Assembly (NCBI RefSeq): GCF_000012865.1
Contig: NC_007503.1
Location: 1,400,001 to 1,464,000 of the forward strand
Length of the DNA stretch: 64,000 nt
Source: Carboxydothermus hydrogenoformans Z-2901
Lineage (GTDB): Bacteria; Bacillota; Z-2901; Carboxydothermales; Carboxydothermaceae
Direction: 5' to 3'
Position 1 is the first letter of the stretch; every line of letters starts with the position of its first letter. A model generated the notes under the pieces. That model was given only the letters and a program-made list of their open reading frames with translations, did no database searches and was not told where the DNA came from. The position numbers were made by a program, and so were the translations under genes. Of the stretch, positions 14,642-30,373 are shown piece after piece.

Positions 14642-14900
14642 AGCTTTCGCCCGTTTTAGGGACGAAAGCTAAAGTTCCGCGGTACCACCCTACTTAGCCA
14701 TAAAGCTCACTCTGCAGAAAGGGTTATCCCTTTCTTACTTGCTAACGGAAGAATCCGTTGCCGCCTACTTACCTTTCAGCGGAAAGCTCACGGGCGAACT
14801 TCAGTCGGCCTGCCATAAAAGGGCTTTCAGTCCGCGGCCCTTTCTCCCTGGATGGTCAGCATCCAACTTACTCCTCCCGGTCATTGCCTTTTATAGCTAA
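14642..14900 (-). promoter_or_regulatory. T-box leader of pheST (tRNA-Phe sensing)
   Basis: The minus strand carries the canonical T-box sequence AGGGTGGTACCGCGGAA (14675-14691) followed by a terminator: stem AGCTTTCGTCCC / GGGCGAAAGCT (14642-14670) and a T-rich tail. The 5' end has the stem I signature TGACCGGGAGGAGTAAG (about 14867-14883). In GACTGAAGTTCGCCCG the likely specifier TTC (14796-14798) is a Phe codon, as expected for pheS. Uncharged tRNA-Phe would stabilise the antiterminator and turn on pheST. Confidence 0.93.
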
Positions 14901-18975: not shown

Positions 18976-19000
18976 AACTGTCCACCTCCAGAAAAAATGT

Positions 19001-19033
19001 TAAAAATAAAAAGCGGGCTTCCACCCGCTTTTT
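19001..19033 (-). terminator. Attenuator terminator in the infC leader
   Basis: The minus strand has AAAAAGCGGG / CCCGCTTTTT as a perfect 10-bp stem with a TGGAAG loop, followed by ATTTTTA. It lies 25-60 nt upstream of infC, so it can act as a regulated terminator. Confidence 0.85.
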
Positions 19034-19045
19034 CCCAAAAGTAGC

Positions 19046-19074
19046 TGAAAAGCAGACACACGTTGCTTTTCAAT
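19046..19074 (-). other. Hairpin within the infC leader
   Basis: The minus strand sequence GAAAAGCA, then ACGTGTGTC, then TGCTTTTC forms an 8-bp stem (AAAGCAAC region) just upstream of the terminator. It may be the competing structure or a folding scaffold for the leader. Confidence 0.4.
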
Positions 19075-19145
19075 ATTAACCCAAAGCCTCAAACGGCTTT
19101 CAGGTGAGAAGCAGGTGGCTTCTACTTTGTTTTCTTTCCCTTGAA

Positions 19146-21825: not shown

Positions 21826-22632
21826 TTATGAAACTGATTTTAATGTTTGTACTTTTGTGGCTATTAATTCTAAAACCTTATCTTTCTCCATCCTATTTTG
21901 AACATAGTTTTCAATAATCTCTACTAATGCACTTCCCACAATTACACCATCGCAGTAATCTTTAATGTATGCTATCTGCTCTGGTTTCCCAATCCCAAAT
22001 CCTAAACAAACGGGTAACTCGGTTAACTTTTTTACGTTTTGCAATAAAGATATAACCTCTGCTGGCAAACTATCCCGTGCCCCCGTGACCCCGGTTACAG
22101 ACACACAATAAATAAATCCTGAAGCTTGACCCACAATCTTTTCAAGCCGCTTTTGCCCGGTTGTGGGAGCAACCAAAGGAATTAAGTCAAGGCCGTATCC
22201 CGCGGCCGACACCCTTATTTCTTCTCCTTCTTCCACCGGAAGGTCGGGAATTATCAGACCATCAGCTCCAGCCCCCGCTGCCCGCCGCAAAAACTCGTCT
22301 ACACCTATTTGGAGAATCGGATTGAGGTAGGACATAATGACCAGCGGCAAAGATAGCTCCTGGCGGGCAGCCGCTATCAGTGCCAGTACTTCTTCCGGAC
22401 CGCTACCGGCAGCCAGAGCCCGCTGCCCGGCTCTCTGAATCACCGGTCCATCGGCTAAAGGGTCAGAAAAAGGTAAGCCCACTTCAATAAGGTCGGCTCC
22501 AGCCGCCGCCAGGGTTTTGATAATTTCCAGAGAAAAAGTAAGATTTGGGTCTCCTCCCATCGTATAGGCAATAAGGGCTTTTTCCCCTCGACTCCGTTTT
22601 TCCGCAAATACTTGACCAATCCTACTCACCAA
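21826..22632 (-). CDS. trpA: Tryptophan synthase alpha chain
   Basis: TrpA cleaves indole-3-glycerol phosphate to indole, which is channelled to TrpB. The 268-residue TIM barrel contains the catalytic Glu in [19 protein letters not shown] (about residue 47), the catalytic Asp in [11 protein letters not shown] (about 128), and the phosphate-binding [10 protein letters not shown] and GVIVGSALV segments. The start is TTG 22632 or GTG 22629, overlapping the end of trpB, so translation is coupled. It is the last gene before the terminator. Confidence 0.97.
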
Positions 22633-23830
22633 GGGTCACCCCCAATTCGCGGGCCACGGTGTAGACATCCTTATCACCACGGCCGGAAAGGTTGATTACT
22701 ACTATTTTTTCTGACTCAAGCTCCCGGGCAAGCTCCACTCCCTTGGCCACAGCATGGGCGCTTTCCAGAGCCGGCAGAATACCCTCCGTTTTCGCCAGAA
22801 GTTTGAATGCTTCTAAAGCTTCTTCATCGGTAACTGCTGTATACTCCACTCTACCAATATCTTTAAGGTACGCATGTTCCGGTCCTACCCCGGGGTAGTC
22901 CAATCCTGCCGAAATGGAATGAGCCTCTACAATTTGGCCTCGATCATCCTGTAAAACATAAGATTTAGCTCCGTGTAAAACTCCCACCTTACCCCGGCTT
23001 AAGGTAGCAGCATGCCGCCCGCTTTCCAGCCCTAATCCGGCCGCTTCTACTCCAACTAACCGCACATCCTCTTCAAGAAAAGGATAAAACATCCCTATAG
23101 CATTACTTCCCCCACCAACACACGCTACAATTAAGTCAGGGAGTCTTCCTTCCTGCGCTAAGATTTGCGCTTTGGTTTCCTCCCCGATCACCTTTTGAAA
23201 ATCCCGAACAATCGTGGGATAGGGATGTGGTCCGCCAACCGAACCAAGGACATAGTAAGTATCCCGAACATGAGTAACCCAGTAGCGAATGGCCTCATTC
23301 ATAGCATCTTTAAGAGTACGACTACCGGAAGTTACACTTTCCACTTGCGCACCTAAAAGGCGCATGCGGTACACATTCAATTCCTGCCGGCGGACATCCT
23401 CTGCCCCCATAAAAATAGTACACTCCAATCCAAACTTTGCCGCCGCCGTAGCGGTAGCTACTCCATGCTGGCCGGCCCCGGTTTCCGCCACTACCTTTTT
23501 TTTGCCCATGCGCCGCGCCAGCAGAACCTGCCCTATGGTATTGTTAATTTTGTGGGCACCGGTATGGGCAAGGTCTTCCCGTTTTAGATAAATCTTTGCC
23601 CCTCCTACATACCGGGACAGGCTCTCAGCAAAATAAAGAGGCGTAGGACGTCCGGCATAATGTTGCAAATAAAAGGTTAATTCAGCTTGAAATGAACGAT
23701 CATTTTTAACTTCCTCGTAAGCCTCTATCAGCTCTTCTAAAGCTGCCATTAAAGTTTCTGGTACAAACTGCCCACCGTAGGGGCCAAAATACCCTCGTGC
23801 ATCTGGCAATTTATAGTTTTTTAAACTCAT
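22622..23830 (-). CDS. trpB: Tryptophan synthase beta chain
   Basis: TrpB condenses indole and serine with pyridoxal phosphate. The 402 residues contain the PLP lysine in [16 protein letters not shown] (about residue 93), the phosphate-binding [10 protein letters not shown], and the C-terminal NLSGRGDKD. It begins [15 protein letters not shown] as in the TrpB1 group that partners with TrpA. Its ATG overlaps trpF by 20 nt and has AGGAGG upstream. Confidence 0.98.
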
Positions 23831-24473
23831 TTTCCGACCTCCTGACCGCTTGGATAAATGCTTCTATCCGGATATAATCCTTGATTCCCGGGGCTTTTTC
23901 CACCCCGCTGGAAACATCAACACCATAAGGTTTGACCTGCTGTAAGGCTTTCCCAACATTTTCAGGATTTAGGCCTCCGGCTAAAAACCAGGGCTTTTCT
24001 ATCTTCAGCCCCTGAAGAATTTGCCAGTTAAAGGTTTTCCCGCTACCACCAAATGTATTGCCGGAAGACGTATCAAAAAGAAAAGCGTGAACATACTTTT
24101 CGTAAATTGCTATTTGCCTCTTAAGTTCTTCGGTATCAGTTTCTATCGGTACAGGGATACTTTTAATAATTTTCGCGCGAATTTTCTCCTTAAGCTTACC
24201 GCAATATTCAGGACTTTCGCCACCGTGAAGCTGAACAACATCTAAATTGCAGGACACTGCTATTTGAGCCACATCCTCCACATCCATATTAGCCACAACT
24301 CCTACGGTGGCAACAAAGGGGGGGAGAATTTCCGTTATTTCCCTGACTACTTCTGGCTTAACCTGCCGCGGACTATTAGCGAAGACAAAACCTATGGCGT
24401 CAGCTCCAGCCAGGGAAGCTTTCAGGGCAGTTTCCTTATCTTTAATCCCGCAAATTTTTACCCTTACCCTCAT
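23811..24473 (-). CDS. trpF: Phosphoribosylanthranilate isomerase
   Basis: TrpF converts phosphoribosylanthranilate to CdRP by Amadori rearrangement. The 220-residue barrel starts [16 protein letters not shown] with the catalytic Cys, has [13 protein letters not shown], the catalytic Asp in [18 protein letters not shown], and [16 protein letters not shown] at the C-terminus. Its ATG overlaps trpC by 4 nt. Confidence 0.97.
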
Positions 24474-25267
24474 GCCAGCAACACCTCCAATGCTTTCCCG
24501 GGATCTGGAGCCCGCACTAAAGCTTCACCGATGAGAATTCCGTGATAACCTGCAGTCATTAAAGCCTTGATATCCTCTTTGCTTCGAATACCGCTTTCAC
24601 TTACCATCACTACTCCCGCCTCTTTTAGAACGGGGGCCAGTTTTAACGAAACATCAATGTTAGTGGCAAAGGTACGTAAGTCGCGGTTGTTTATGCCAAT
24701 TAGCCTTGCTCCTGCTGTTAAAGCTTTCTCGACTTCCTCTAAACTGTGAGCCTCAACCAACGCCTCCATGCCAAGGCCTTCGGTTATTTTAATCATTTCC
24801 TTTAATTCTACTGACGCCAAAAGAGAAGTTATAAGAAGAACGGCATCTGCACCCAGTACCTTAGCTTCATAAATTTGGTAGGGGTCCAAAATAAAATCTT
24901 TTCGTAAAATGGGCAACGAAACTACCGCCCTCACAGCCTTAAGATACTCCGGTGACCCCAAGAAATAATCCTCCTCCGTTAAAACTGAAATCGCTGCCGC
25001 CCCACTTTTAGCGTATACCTGAGCTACTTCTTCCGGATCAAGCTGCTCCCGTAACACACCTTTGGAAGGAGACGCCTTTTTAATCTCGGCAATTACTCCC
25101 ACCTTCCCTTTTGCATTTTCTCTAAGTAAAGCTTGACGGAGGGAAAGGGGCAAACGGTGGCTGACCTGTTCTTCCGCCATCTTTCGCATTTCCCAAAAAG
25201 GAATTTTATTTTTGGCCTGTCTAACCTTTTCCCGACGAACCTGGACAATTTTTTCGAGGAACATCAC
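24470..25267 (-). CDS. trpC: Indole-3-glycerol phosphate synthase
   Basis: TrpC closes the indole ring with loss of CO2 and water. The 265 residues contain [15 protein letters not shown] (catalytic Lys and Glu, about residue 58), [27 protein letters not shown] and [10 protein letters not shown], all family landmarks. It is a stand-alone TrpC, not fused to TrpF. Its ATG overlaps trpD by 4 nt. Confidence 0.97.
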
Positions 25268-26286
25268 CCCGCCTCCTTTATTTCATGACTTAGACGGCGC
25301 AATTTTTCCAGCTTCTCTGCTGCCAACCCCTTATCAATACTTTCCCGGGCCATTACAAGCGCTTCCCGAAAATCATTTACACCCCCGGCCATTATGCCAA
25401 AAGCAGCATTTAAAAGTACTACATCCCTCAATGGTCCCGGTTTCCCATCTAAAATTTCCTGCAATAACCGGGCATTTTCGAAAGCATCTCCCCCTTGTAA
25501 ATCTCTTAAACTGCAGTAAGAAAAACCGTAAGAAAGCGGATCAAAAAGGTAACTATCTATTTTACCCCGGTTTAATTCAAAAACCCGGGTAGGACCAGTT
25601 AGCGAAACCTCATCCAGTCCTCCGTGTCCGTGAACTACAAAAGCTCGTTCCACCCCCAAATTATTTAAAACTTTCGCCAGGGTTTCCTGCAGCTCAGGAG
25701 TAAAAACCCCTAATACCTGGCCCACAATATTTGCCGGGTTTGCTAAAGGTCCCAAAATATTAAAGACGGTCCGTACCCCTATCTCCCGCCGAGTTTTAGC
25801 CACATGCCGCATAGCTGGGTGCAAATTTGGAGCAAAAAGAAAACCAATACCTATTTCATCAACACAGCGGGCCGTGCCTTTAGCATCTAAATCAATGTTC
25901 ACCCCCAGAGCTTCTAAAACATCGGCACTACCGGAACGACTGGAAACGCTTCGGTTTCCGTGTTTTGCCACAGGTATACCGGCACCGGCAACGACAAAAG
26001 CAGCTGCAGTAGAGATATTGAAAGTTTGCCGACCGTCTCCACCGGTTCCACAGGTATCCACCAATCCTTCAGTTTGAGTAATTACCCGTCTTGCTTTTTC
26101 CCGCAGCGCCAGCGCAAAAGCGGAAATTTCTTCTTCCGTTTCCCCTTTCATTTTTAACGCCACCAAAAATGCCGCCACCTGCGCCTCGGTATACTTTCCC
26201 TCCATGAGTTCGTTCATTGTGGCCAGTGCTTCAGAAAAATTTAAGTTTTCTCCTCTCATCAATCTCTCTAATACTTCTCTCACCAA
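25264..26286 (-). CDS. trpD: Anthranilate phosphoribosyltransferase
   Basis: TrpD joins anthranilate to PRPP. The 340 residues show [14 protein letters not shown] (about residue 80), [39 protein letters not shown] and [11 protein letters not shown]. The start is TTG 26286 or GTG 26283, with GGAGG 6-9 nt upstream. It is separate from trpG, unlike the fused enterobacterial form. Confidence 0.97.
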
Positions 26287-26307: not shown

Positions 26308-26877
26308 TTAAGCTTGATACTCAAGAAAATTAAGCAATAATTCTTTACCATACTCGGTCATTATCGATTCCGGATGAAACTGTACCCCTTCTATTGCCCA
26401 AGTCCGGTGGCGGATTCCCATGATTGTTCCCTCTGCAGTAGTTGCAGTTATTATAAGTTCCTGGGGTAACCCCTCTTTTTCTACGACCAGGGAATGATAA
26501 CGCGTAGCTCGAAAAGGATTTGGTAACCCTTTATAAATTCCCTGACCATCATGGTATATTAGAGAAGTTTTCCCATGCACCGGAATTTTATCCTGGATAA
26601 CCTTTCCACCAAAGGCCTGACCTATCACCTGGTGCCCCAGACAAACTCCTAAAATTGGTATTTTCCCGGCAAAAAAGCGTACTACATCCAACGAAATCCC
26701 CGCTTCATTAGGAGTACACGGCCCGGGAGAAATAATGATATGGGTTGGCTTCATCTCTCTAATCTCCGAAAGGGTTATGCGATCATTACGCCGGACCACT
26801 ACCCGGTGCCCTAATTCACCCAAATATTGCACCAAGTTGTAGGTAAAAGAATCGTAATTATCTATCAGTAAAATCAC
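26308..26877 (-). CDS. trpG: Anthranilate synthase glutaminase subunit
   Basis: TrpG is a class I glutamine amidotransferase that feeds ammonia to TrpE. The nucleophile Cys is in [15 protein letters not shown] (about residue 80) and the His-Glu pair in [13 protein letters not shown] near the C-terminus; [11 protein letters not shown] is also typical. At 189 residues it is a complete subunit. In this lineage the same protein may serve para-aminobenzoate synthesis as PabA. The ATG overlaps trpE by 4 nt. Confidence 0.95.
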
Positions 26878-28337
26878 TTATTAACCCCCCCGTTACAACG
26901 AAATTCAGCTGCACCCGTTATCGCTTCCACCATTGCCTGGGCCTTATTTATTGTTTCTTGGTATTCTCGCTCGGGATCCGAATCCCAAACAATCCCGGCC
27001 CCGGCTTGAAAATAAACCATTTCATCTTTTATCCAGAGGGTTCGAATGGTAATGCACGTATTCATTTCCCCTGTAAAGCTTATATATCCTACCGCTCCCG
27101 CATAAGGCCCTCGAGGTACCGGTTCTAACTCATCAATAATTTCCATTGCCCTAATCTTAGGTGCTCCGGAAACGGTTCCTGCAGGAAACACCGCTTTTAG
27201 TGCATCAACGGGATTAAATTTCTTTTCTACTTCTCCTTGAACGGTGGAAACAAGGTGCATTACGTGAGAAAACTCCTCAACTTTAAAAAACTCAGTTACT
27301 TTAACGCTGCCCGGTCGACAAACTTTGCCCAGGTCGTTTCGTCCCAAATCTACCAACATCAAATGTTCTGCCCGTTCTTTTTCATCGGCCAGAAGTTCCC
27401 GCGCAAGGCGTAAATCTTCCTCCGGCTGACCGGTTCTTGGTCTGGTGCCGGCAATTGGCCTGGTCTCTACTATCCCCCCTTCCAGCCGCACCAGCATTTC
27501 CGGTGAAGCCCCTATAAGTTTGAGCTCGCCAAAATCCAAGAAAAACATGTAGGGAGAAGGGTTAAGCCGCCGCAAACGCCGGTAAATATTAAAAGGCGCT
27601 TCCAGGCAAGGGAAGGAAAAACGCTGGGATAAAACTACCTGAAAAATATCTCCCGCTTTAATATAATCCTTGGCCTTTTCCACCATCGTGCAAAAATCCC
27701 TTTTAGTCATAGTCGCATTACAAATACTTCGTTCTGGCTTAATAGTTAATGCCCAATTTTCAGAAGTTGTTAGATTAGTTAACTTACCGATTATCTCTTT
27801 AATTGAATCCTGTGCCCGCCGGTATGCGGTTTTTTCACCTTCTTTTTGAGGAAGGGTATTTATCACGATTTTCAGGGTATGATAACGGTGGTCAAATACC
27901 AAAACTTTCTCCGGAAACATTAAACGAAAAAGCTCTTCATCATCCCGGGCATGTCGGCAACTCCGCAAATTTTCCAGTTCATATACAAGGCCGTAACTAA
28001 AATACCCTACAGCTCCTCCGTAAAAAGGTAACCCGGCTATAGGCGGTCCTTTTAAGTTAAAAAGCTGTGACGAAACAACCTCCAGATTGCGACCGGTTAA
28101 CACTTTAAACGGATCATAACCAATAAAGGAAAAACGGGCCATTTTTTCATTCCCCGGTGCACTTTCCAGTAAAAAGGAAATTCCTTTATCCAGTGCCAAA
28201 TGTTGATATAAGGTAATAGGGGTAAAAGTGTCGGCTAAAAGTTCAACCATAACCGGCACAACCTGGTAATGTTTTGCGTAAGCGCAATACTCTTCCCAAT
28301 TAGGAGTTAAATCTAACTCCGAATAAACTTTGCTCAT
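26874..28337 (-). CDS. trpE: Anthranilate synthase component I
   Basis: TrpE makes anthranilate from chorismate, the committed step of tryptophan synthesis. The 487 residues contain the tryptophan feedback motif LLESAPG near residue 58, [39 protein letters not shown] and the C-terminal [19 protein letters not shown] with [30 protein letters not shown] precedes the ATG. It is 21 bp downstream of aroF. Confidence 0.97.
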
Positions 28338-28358
28338 CTCGTCCCTTCTCCTCTCTTT

Positions 28359-29138
28359 TTATAACCTTTTTCCCGCTACATGCACCCATGGCTTTAATTC
28401 GTTTATCAACTGTTCGTATTCCTGAAAATTTAAAGACTGCTGACCATCACTTAACGCTCTTTCTGGCTCCGGATGAATCTCTATTAAGAGCCCATCCGCT
28501 CCCGCCGCAACCGCTGCTTTAGCTAACGACGGTATAATATCCCTGCGCCCGGCAGCATGGCTGGGATCAACAATTACCGGATAAGGAGTTAGCTTTTTTA
28601 GTAACGGAACCGCACTGATGTCAAGCGTATTTCGCGTCATCGTTTCAAAAGTTCTAATACCTCTTTCACATAGAATTATTTTTCTGTTACCTCCTTTTTC
28701 AAGATACGCAACCGCTCCCAACCATTCTTCCAGGGTAGCAGCTAAACCTCTTTTTAAAAGTACCGGTTTATCAACTTTTGCTAAAAGTTTTAACAAAGCA
28801 TAATTTTGCATATTTCGACTGCCTACCTGTAAGATGTCGGCTACAGGTAAAGCTTTATTAAGAGAATCTTCATCTATAACTTCCGTTACCACTAAAAGTC
28901 CTGTTTCGGCTTTGGCTAATGCCAAATATTTCAAAGCCTCCTCGCCTAACCCCTGAAAACTTTCTGGCCGGGTTCTCGGCTTAAAAGCTCCTCCCCTTAA
29001 ACCAACAGCTCCACTGTCCTTAACAATTTTTGCCGTCTCTATTATTTGCTCTAAATTTTCCACAGCACAAGGACCGGCAAAAACTAAAAACCGATTACTT
29101 TTCAGTAAATCTTCCCAAATCTTTAAATCCACAAACAA
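28359..29138 (-). CDS. aroF: 3-deoxy-7-phosphoheptulonate synthase
   Basis: DAHP synthase condenses PEP and erythrose 4-phosphate, the first shikimate step. The protein belongs to the KDO8P-related AroA-beta type: FAGPCAVEN near residue 18, [34 protein letters not shown] and the metal-binding [10 protein letters not shown]. The open frame runs back to an ATG at 29171, but that lies just past the attenuator. TTG at 29138 has AAAGGAGGT 7 nt upstream and is the better start, giving 259 residues. No regulatory ACT or FLD domain is present at the N-terminus, so control may come from the TRAP-type leader. Confidence 0.93.
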
Positions 29139-29177
29139 CCTCGTACCTCCTTTAAAACCATTTTTTACCACAGAAAC

Positions 29178-29210
29178 AAAAAACCAGCACCAAACTGAGT
29201 GCTGGTTTTA
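29178..29210 (-). terminator. Attenuator terminator of the aro-trp operon
   Basis: The minus strand has AAACCAGCAC / GTGCTGGTTT as a 10-bp perfect stem with an 8-nt loop, followed by TTTTTTGTTT, 40 bp before the aroF start. A CTCAG in its 5' arm and loop (29195-29199) can pair with the CTGAG units of the upstream triplet array, giving a candidate antiterminator. Confidence 0.9.
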
Positions 29211-29212
29211 CT

Positions 29213-29276
29213 CTAATCCCGTACTAACCCGCCCTCAGCTCAGCTCCTCTAAACTCAACTCGTCTCAACTCGTCTC
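29213..29276 (-). promoter_or_regulatory. TRAP-binding site: phased (G/T)AG triplet array
   Basis: Minus-strand triplets start every 5 nt: GAG at 29274-29276, 29269, 29264, 29259, 29254, then TAG 29249, GAG 29244, 29239 and 29234. The next slot (29229) reads CGG and the eleventh (29224) is TAG; coordinates are the left ends. Another TAG at 29213-29215 is 1 nt out of phase. Eleven slots match the eleven subunits of the TRAP ring, which binds (G/U)AG repeats in tryptophan excess. The array precedes the attenuator. Confidence 0.93.
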
Positions 29277-29303
29277 TTAGAAATATTTTATTTTTATTGC
29301 AAA

Positions 29304-29333
29304 AGTTTACCTTATAAACTAACCCCAAGTCAA
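29304..29333 (-). promoter_or_regulatory. Promoter of the aro-trp operon
   Basis: TTGACT (29328-29333) and TAAACT (29304-29309) are 18 bp apart on the minus strand. Transcription would start near 29297, about 20 nt before the first triplet of the array. Confidence 0.65.
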
Positions 29334-30298: not shown

Positions 30299-30373
30299 TG
30301 GTGGGCGGGACAGGGATCGAACCTGTGACCTTCTGCGCGTCAAGCAGACGTTCTCCCACTGAACTACCCGCCC
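30299..30373 (-). tRNA. tRNA-Val (GAC)
   Basis: The minus strand folds as a 75-nt cloverleaf with CCA encoded. The acceptor stem is GGGCGGG / CCCGCCC, the T arm contains GGTTCGATCC, and the anticodon arm is TCTGC-TTGACGC-GCAGA, with anticodon GAC for Val codon GUC. It stands alone between the ytxC-like gene and pdaB. Confidence 0.95.

Follow-up and report, generated by a model that had tools for sequence, protein, structure and literature searches.

How does Carboxydothermus hydrogenoformans Z-2901, an anaerobe, adjust the expression of its tryptophan biosynthesis genes to the supply of tryptophan? The DNA analyzed here is a 64,000-nucleotide stretch of contig NC_007503.1 (positions 1,400,001 to 1,464,000), referred to as the window, and its coordinates are used below unless stated otherwise. 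An initial annotation of the segment ahead of aroF-trp had proposed an attenuator controlled by the mtrB product TRAP, a textbook regulator mostly described in Bacillus.

Phased triplet array in the leader of the aroF-trp operon

The minus strand carries a TRAP-type array of 11 slots with an exact 5-nt period between positions 29276 and 29224. Ten of the 11 slots are filled by GAG or TAG and one reads CGG, as initially annotated; from 29276 down to 29224 the order is GAG GAG GAG GAG GAG TAG GAG GAG GAG CGG TAG, so that the deviating triplet occupies slot 10 (29231-29229), and the spacers within the 11 slots are all exactly 2 nt long, within the 2 to 3 nt typical of TRAP attenuators. Past slot 11, the phase continues with GGG and then TAG (29215-29213), which gives a total of 11 KAG triplets in 13 phased slots. 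Nowhere else within the 64-kb window were at least 7 of 11 slots filled, order-2 Markov simulations (n = 60, 64 kb each) reached a maximum of 5 of 11, and the chance expectation of at least 10 filled slots, calculated from the binomial distribution for both strands, is about 8e-9 per genome.

The array is positioned between a promoter and an intrinsic terminator, ahead of aroF-trp. A consensus scan recovered the good promoter that had been described upstream of the array as TTGACT-18-TAAACT (29333-29304), with the −35 element at 29328-29333 and the −10 element, 18 nt away, at 29304-29309 on the minus strand; both elements are kept in two sister species, and transcription would start near 29298. 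Consensus scanning also located the terminator and its T run at 29209-29178 (minus strand), with a stem of 12 pairs (5 GC) rather than the 10 bp annotated originally and with a 6-nt loop. Directly upstream of the leader and on the same strand lies a gene of the YtxC family (PF08812, 29350-30186), which is preceded by a tRNA-Val (gac) gene at 30299-30373.

The leader sits ahead of tryptophan biosynthesis genes, namely, aroF and trpE to trpA, all on the minus strand. The first gene, aroF (28359-29171; TIGR01361), encodes DAHP synthase and has an open frame from GTG 29171; a Shine-Dalgarno sequence, AAAGGAGG, at 29153-29146 suggests TTG 29138 instead of GTG 29171 as the real start, and we consider this TTG the likely start codon. 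It is followed by trpE (26874-28337), whose product served as the TrpE query in the survey described below, trpG (26308-26877), trpD (25264-26286), trpC (24470-25267), trpF (23811-24473), trpB (22622-23830; TIGR00263), and trpA (21826-22632); trpD, trpC, trpF, and trpA were named from their sequences, as was trpG, independently of a family-library scan. A mini-array of GAG, GAG, GGG, GAG, and GAG (four of five slots GAG) spans the trpE start region, from ribosome-binding site to ATG, at 28335-28362 on the minus strand; as a TRAP site it was dropped, since the sister species keep only part of it. Two leaders of other types were noted elsewhere on the minus strand of the window: a T-box leader (114.5 bits, 14655-14893) immediately before a gene reading as pheS and an L20 leader (60.7 bits, 18999-19133) before a gene reading as infC, with rpmI and rplT next.

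Predicted competing structures in the leader RNA

Prefix folding was used to follow the leader RNA as it grows. Once the 5′ arm and the loop of the terminator have been made, GCUGAGCUGAG (29244-29234), which overlaps slots 7 to 9 of the array, pairs with CUCAGUUUGGU (29199-29189), which lies within the terminator. The pairing of CTGAG in the array with CTCAG in the terminator, already recognized in the initial annotation, extends to 11 bp. In the computed folds, this antiterminator is the minimum-energy structure for each of the three Carboxydothermus species when the leader is truncated, and in every case it overlaps both the array and the terminator and is mutually exclusive with the latter. 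When the array was forced to remain unpaired as a mimic of bound TRAP, the computed antiterminator was lost and the complete leader folded into the terminator. For the complete C. hydrogenoformans leader without TRAP, the terminator (−33.9 kcal/mol) is favored over the antiterminator (−28.9 kcal/mol) at 37°C, which implies that control must be cotranscriptional or partial. The fold energies computed for 70°C are small.

In an alignment of the three Carboxydothermus leaders, the array arm and the terminator are preserved. The changes between C. hydrogenoformans and Carboxydothermus islandicus that fall within the 11 slots keep KAG, and in the third species, by our reading of the alignment, the 11-slot array is shifted and one of its slots is defective. 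An automatic antiterminator test against shuffled arrays, which took the matched part of each array only and called some hairpins inside genes, gave a p value of ≤0.05 in 3 of 47 leaders and of 0.01 for the C. hydrogenoformans leader; its outcome speaks neither for nor against an antiterminator throughout the phylum, and we claim none.

The putative regulator

A search for mtrB had been named as one check of the initial annotation, its absence counting as refutation, and a search of the genome (2,401,520 bp, one contig) identified a single mtrB (E = 1e-41, 142 bits). The 81-aa gene product matches Pfam PF02081 and the NCBIfam equivalog NF009724 above the curated cutoff and is identical to crystallized TRAP (1c9s) at 48 of 69 positions. 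It keeps the blocks GLTRG, FHH, EKLDKGEV, AQFTEHTSAIK, and RGK, which in TRAP structures form the RNA- and tryptophan-contacting parts. The MtrB protein of C. islandicus (contig NZ_BDJL01000132.1) is 94% identical. The neighbors of mtrB read as accD, accA, pfkA, and pyk; folE, which adjoins mtrB in B. subtilis, is not adjacent here. A further difference from B. subtilis concerns anti-TRAP: the genome search found no rtpA gene, its sole match being a zinc domain that scores below the cutoff and belongs to an apparent DnaJ protein, which was rejected as a candidate.

Candidate translational site at trpB2

Only one other site in the genome has five phased triplets. It is located at genome positions 663366 to 663388 on the minus strand (1501-1523 of locus L003), reads TAG AA GAG GT GAG TT TAG AT GAG, and extends over both the ribosome-binding site and the ATG start codon (genome position 663370) of trpB2, a TrpB-like gene (TIGR01415). 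Both sister species keep the site, one of them with a single spacer change. In an independent set, whose mtrB-positive genomes lay outside those used for discovery, at least four phased triplets were present at the trpB2 start in 15 of 23 genomes with mtrB versus 0 of 15 without it (P = 3e-5, an optimistic value given that the genomes are related). On sequence grounds, TRAP probably controls the translation of trpB2 directly. In Bacillus, TRAP represses translation at trpP, pabA, and ycbK. The trpB2 site resembles these in being a shorter run of triplets over the ribosome-binding site and the start codon and differs in its target. To our knowledge, control of trpB2 by TRAP has not been reported, and a search of the accessible literature returned no such case; as a TRAP target, trpB2 is likely a new element.

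Arrays and mtrB across the phylum

The initial annotation had regarded TRAP as mostly a Bacillus protein and the present locus as lying outside that range. The occurrence outside Bacillus stands, but it is not exceptional, since 200 of the 398 genomes sampled from the phylum carry mtrB. Six phased KAG triplets were found in 54 of 80 genomes with mtrB versus 4 of 80 without it (Fisher P = 6e-18) and, counted by genus, in 44 of 69 versus 3 of 66; because the genomes are related, the survey P values are optimistic. Genomes lacking mtrB provide a better control than the reversed pattern, which is not independent because GAG is the same read backwards. The exceptions, with arrays and no mtrB, are G083, G088, G122, and G109, the arrays of G088 and G122 being simple repeats. 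G083, scored as mtrB negative, has typical arrays at trpD and at a TrpP-like gene (L072 and L068), and these sites suggest that its assembly may have missed an mtrB gene. Arrays were absent from all 17 mtrB-lacking genomes in which a TrpE homologue had been identified. Scanning of trpE loci from mtrB-lacking genomes (n = 15) revealed nine clear T-boxes and one weak one, scored for presence.

Nearly all arrays are located at tryptophan biosynthesis or tryptophan transport genes. By manual count, the 66 catalogued sites are distributed over trpE, aroF, or trpG (32), TrpP-like transporters (12, with three representatives confirmed as PF17099), trpD (10, three of them with an unresolved gap to trpD), trpB2 (5), trpB (4), and iorA, a TrpX-like binding protein (below the NCBIfam cutoff), and a DctP binding protein (1 each); the survey sites given no target were mostly simple repeats or in genomes without mtrB. 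At three loci (L046, L081, and L088), an array and then a terminator precede, respectively, iorA (indolepyruvate oxidoreductase), the gene of a TrpX-like ABC binding protein, and that of a DctP-type binding protein, all of which are possible further TRAP targets. At L183 (position 5310), L214 (5263), and L200 (5366), mtrB itself lies directly before an array and trpE or aroF, and L034 has a similar layout; genomes with this arrangement are those of Halonatronum saccharophilum and Natroniella acetigena and a metagenome-assembled genome of Bacillota.

Alternative explanations

Two other types of attenuation and a trivial origin of the array were considered. If a T-box sensing tRNA-Trp controlled the operon, the triplets would be incidental; many genomes of the phylum that lack mtrB do have T-boxes before trpE, and the window contains a T-box elsewhere. 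The trp leader, however, is with about 120 nt shorter than the 219-position T-box model, and neither this model (RF00230) at a permissive threshold, in or near the leader, nor any other Rfam model matches it, which refutes a T-box at the sensitivity of Rfam and leaves this explanation a negligible probability. Ribosome-mediated attenuation through a tryptophan-rich leader peptide, to which the antiterminator/terminator architecture would be suited, is just as improbable and is refuted by the leader sequence, which has neither an ATG nor a TGG codon ahead of the terminator stem. That the array is a simple-sequence repeat or arose by chance is only marginally more credible. Perfect pentamer repeats do exist in some genomes (L041 and L078 in G105; L070 and L071 in genomes lacking mtrB), but the spacers of the C. 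hydrogenoformans leader vary while KAG is kept, the chance expectation given above is minute, and arrays are associated with mtrB and trp genes.

A different kind of alternative accepts that TRAP binds the leader and holds that it terminates transcription mainly by acting on the polymerase and not through a switch between RNA folds. In the trp leader of B. subtilis, termination by TRAP can occur even if the attenuator hairpin is missing (PMC3913778), and this precedent, together with the preference of the complete C. hydrogenoformans leader for the terminator even without TRAP, speaks for such a mechanism. A purely direct mechanism would need neither the 11-bp antiterminator nor the terminator, yet both are kept in three species, and we consider it unlikely, though less so than the three explanations above.

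Discussion

The best explanation of the locus, to which we assign a probability of roughly 0.93, is a TRAP-controlled transcription attenuator of aroF-trpEGDCFBA, accompanied by probable repression of trpB2. The single mtrB, the competition between antiterminator and terminator in the folds of three species, and the co-occurrence of arrays with mtrB all support the attenuator proposed initially. When tryptophan is scarce, the array RNA (slots 7 to 9) would pair with the terminator's 5′ half to form the antiterminator, and the polymerase would read through into the operon. When tryptophan is plentiful, the leader RNA would wrap via its (G/U)AG triplets around the ring of tryptophan-bound TRAP, whose gene lies elsewhere in the genome, and this wrapping would block the antiterminator, allow the terminator to form, and end transcription before aroF. 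By covering the ribosome-binding site and start codon, TRAP would probably also repress translation of trpB2. That TRAP binds the leader, that it does so in response to tryptophan, that transcription then terminates, and that trpB2 is repressed is what we infer from the DNA; the attenuator as predicted is of a known kind, every available sequence test agrees with it, and the comparative support is strong.

The C. hydrogenoformans leader shares with the B. subtilis trp leader the (G/U)AG triplets with spacers of 2 to 3 nt, the 11-slot array, and the overlapping antiterminator and terminator (PMC3913778), as well as mtrB in the genome and a trp operon downstream. Unlike that of B. subtilis, the operon begins with aroF, and slot 10 of its array is CGG. 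T-box trp leaders likewise attenuate trp operons in the same phylum; they differ in sensing tRNA, and they are absent from the C. hydrogenoformans leader and present before trpE in genomes without mtrB. Our literature search retrieved no paper that links TRAP with Carboxydothermus; an earlier mention in subscription journals is possible, and reviews of trp regulation reportedly name a few clostridial genomes, perhaps that of Carboxydothermus among them, as encoding TRAP homologues.

A device of the Bacillus type appears to be laid out in an anaerobe of another branch of the phylum, and the survey suggests that the same TRAP control is common across the phylum. For this phylum, whose members are mainly anaerobic Firmicutes, we think it fairly likely that TRAP is a principal tryptophan regulator, with a regulon broader than that described in Bacillus (attenuation of trp, translation of trpB2 and of internal trpD, and several types of tryptophan transporters), and that T-boxes take over where mtrB is lacking. 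With mtrB in roughly half of the genomes sampled, the phylum would offer many natural variants of the array, the antiterminator, and the ring protein, and trpB2, iorA, and the trpX-like and DctP genes are gained as candidate targets. The genomes in which mtrB lies directly before its would-be target operon should be useful for tracing the origin of the system.
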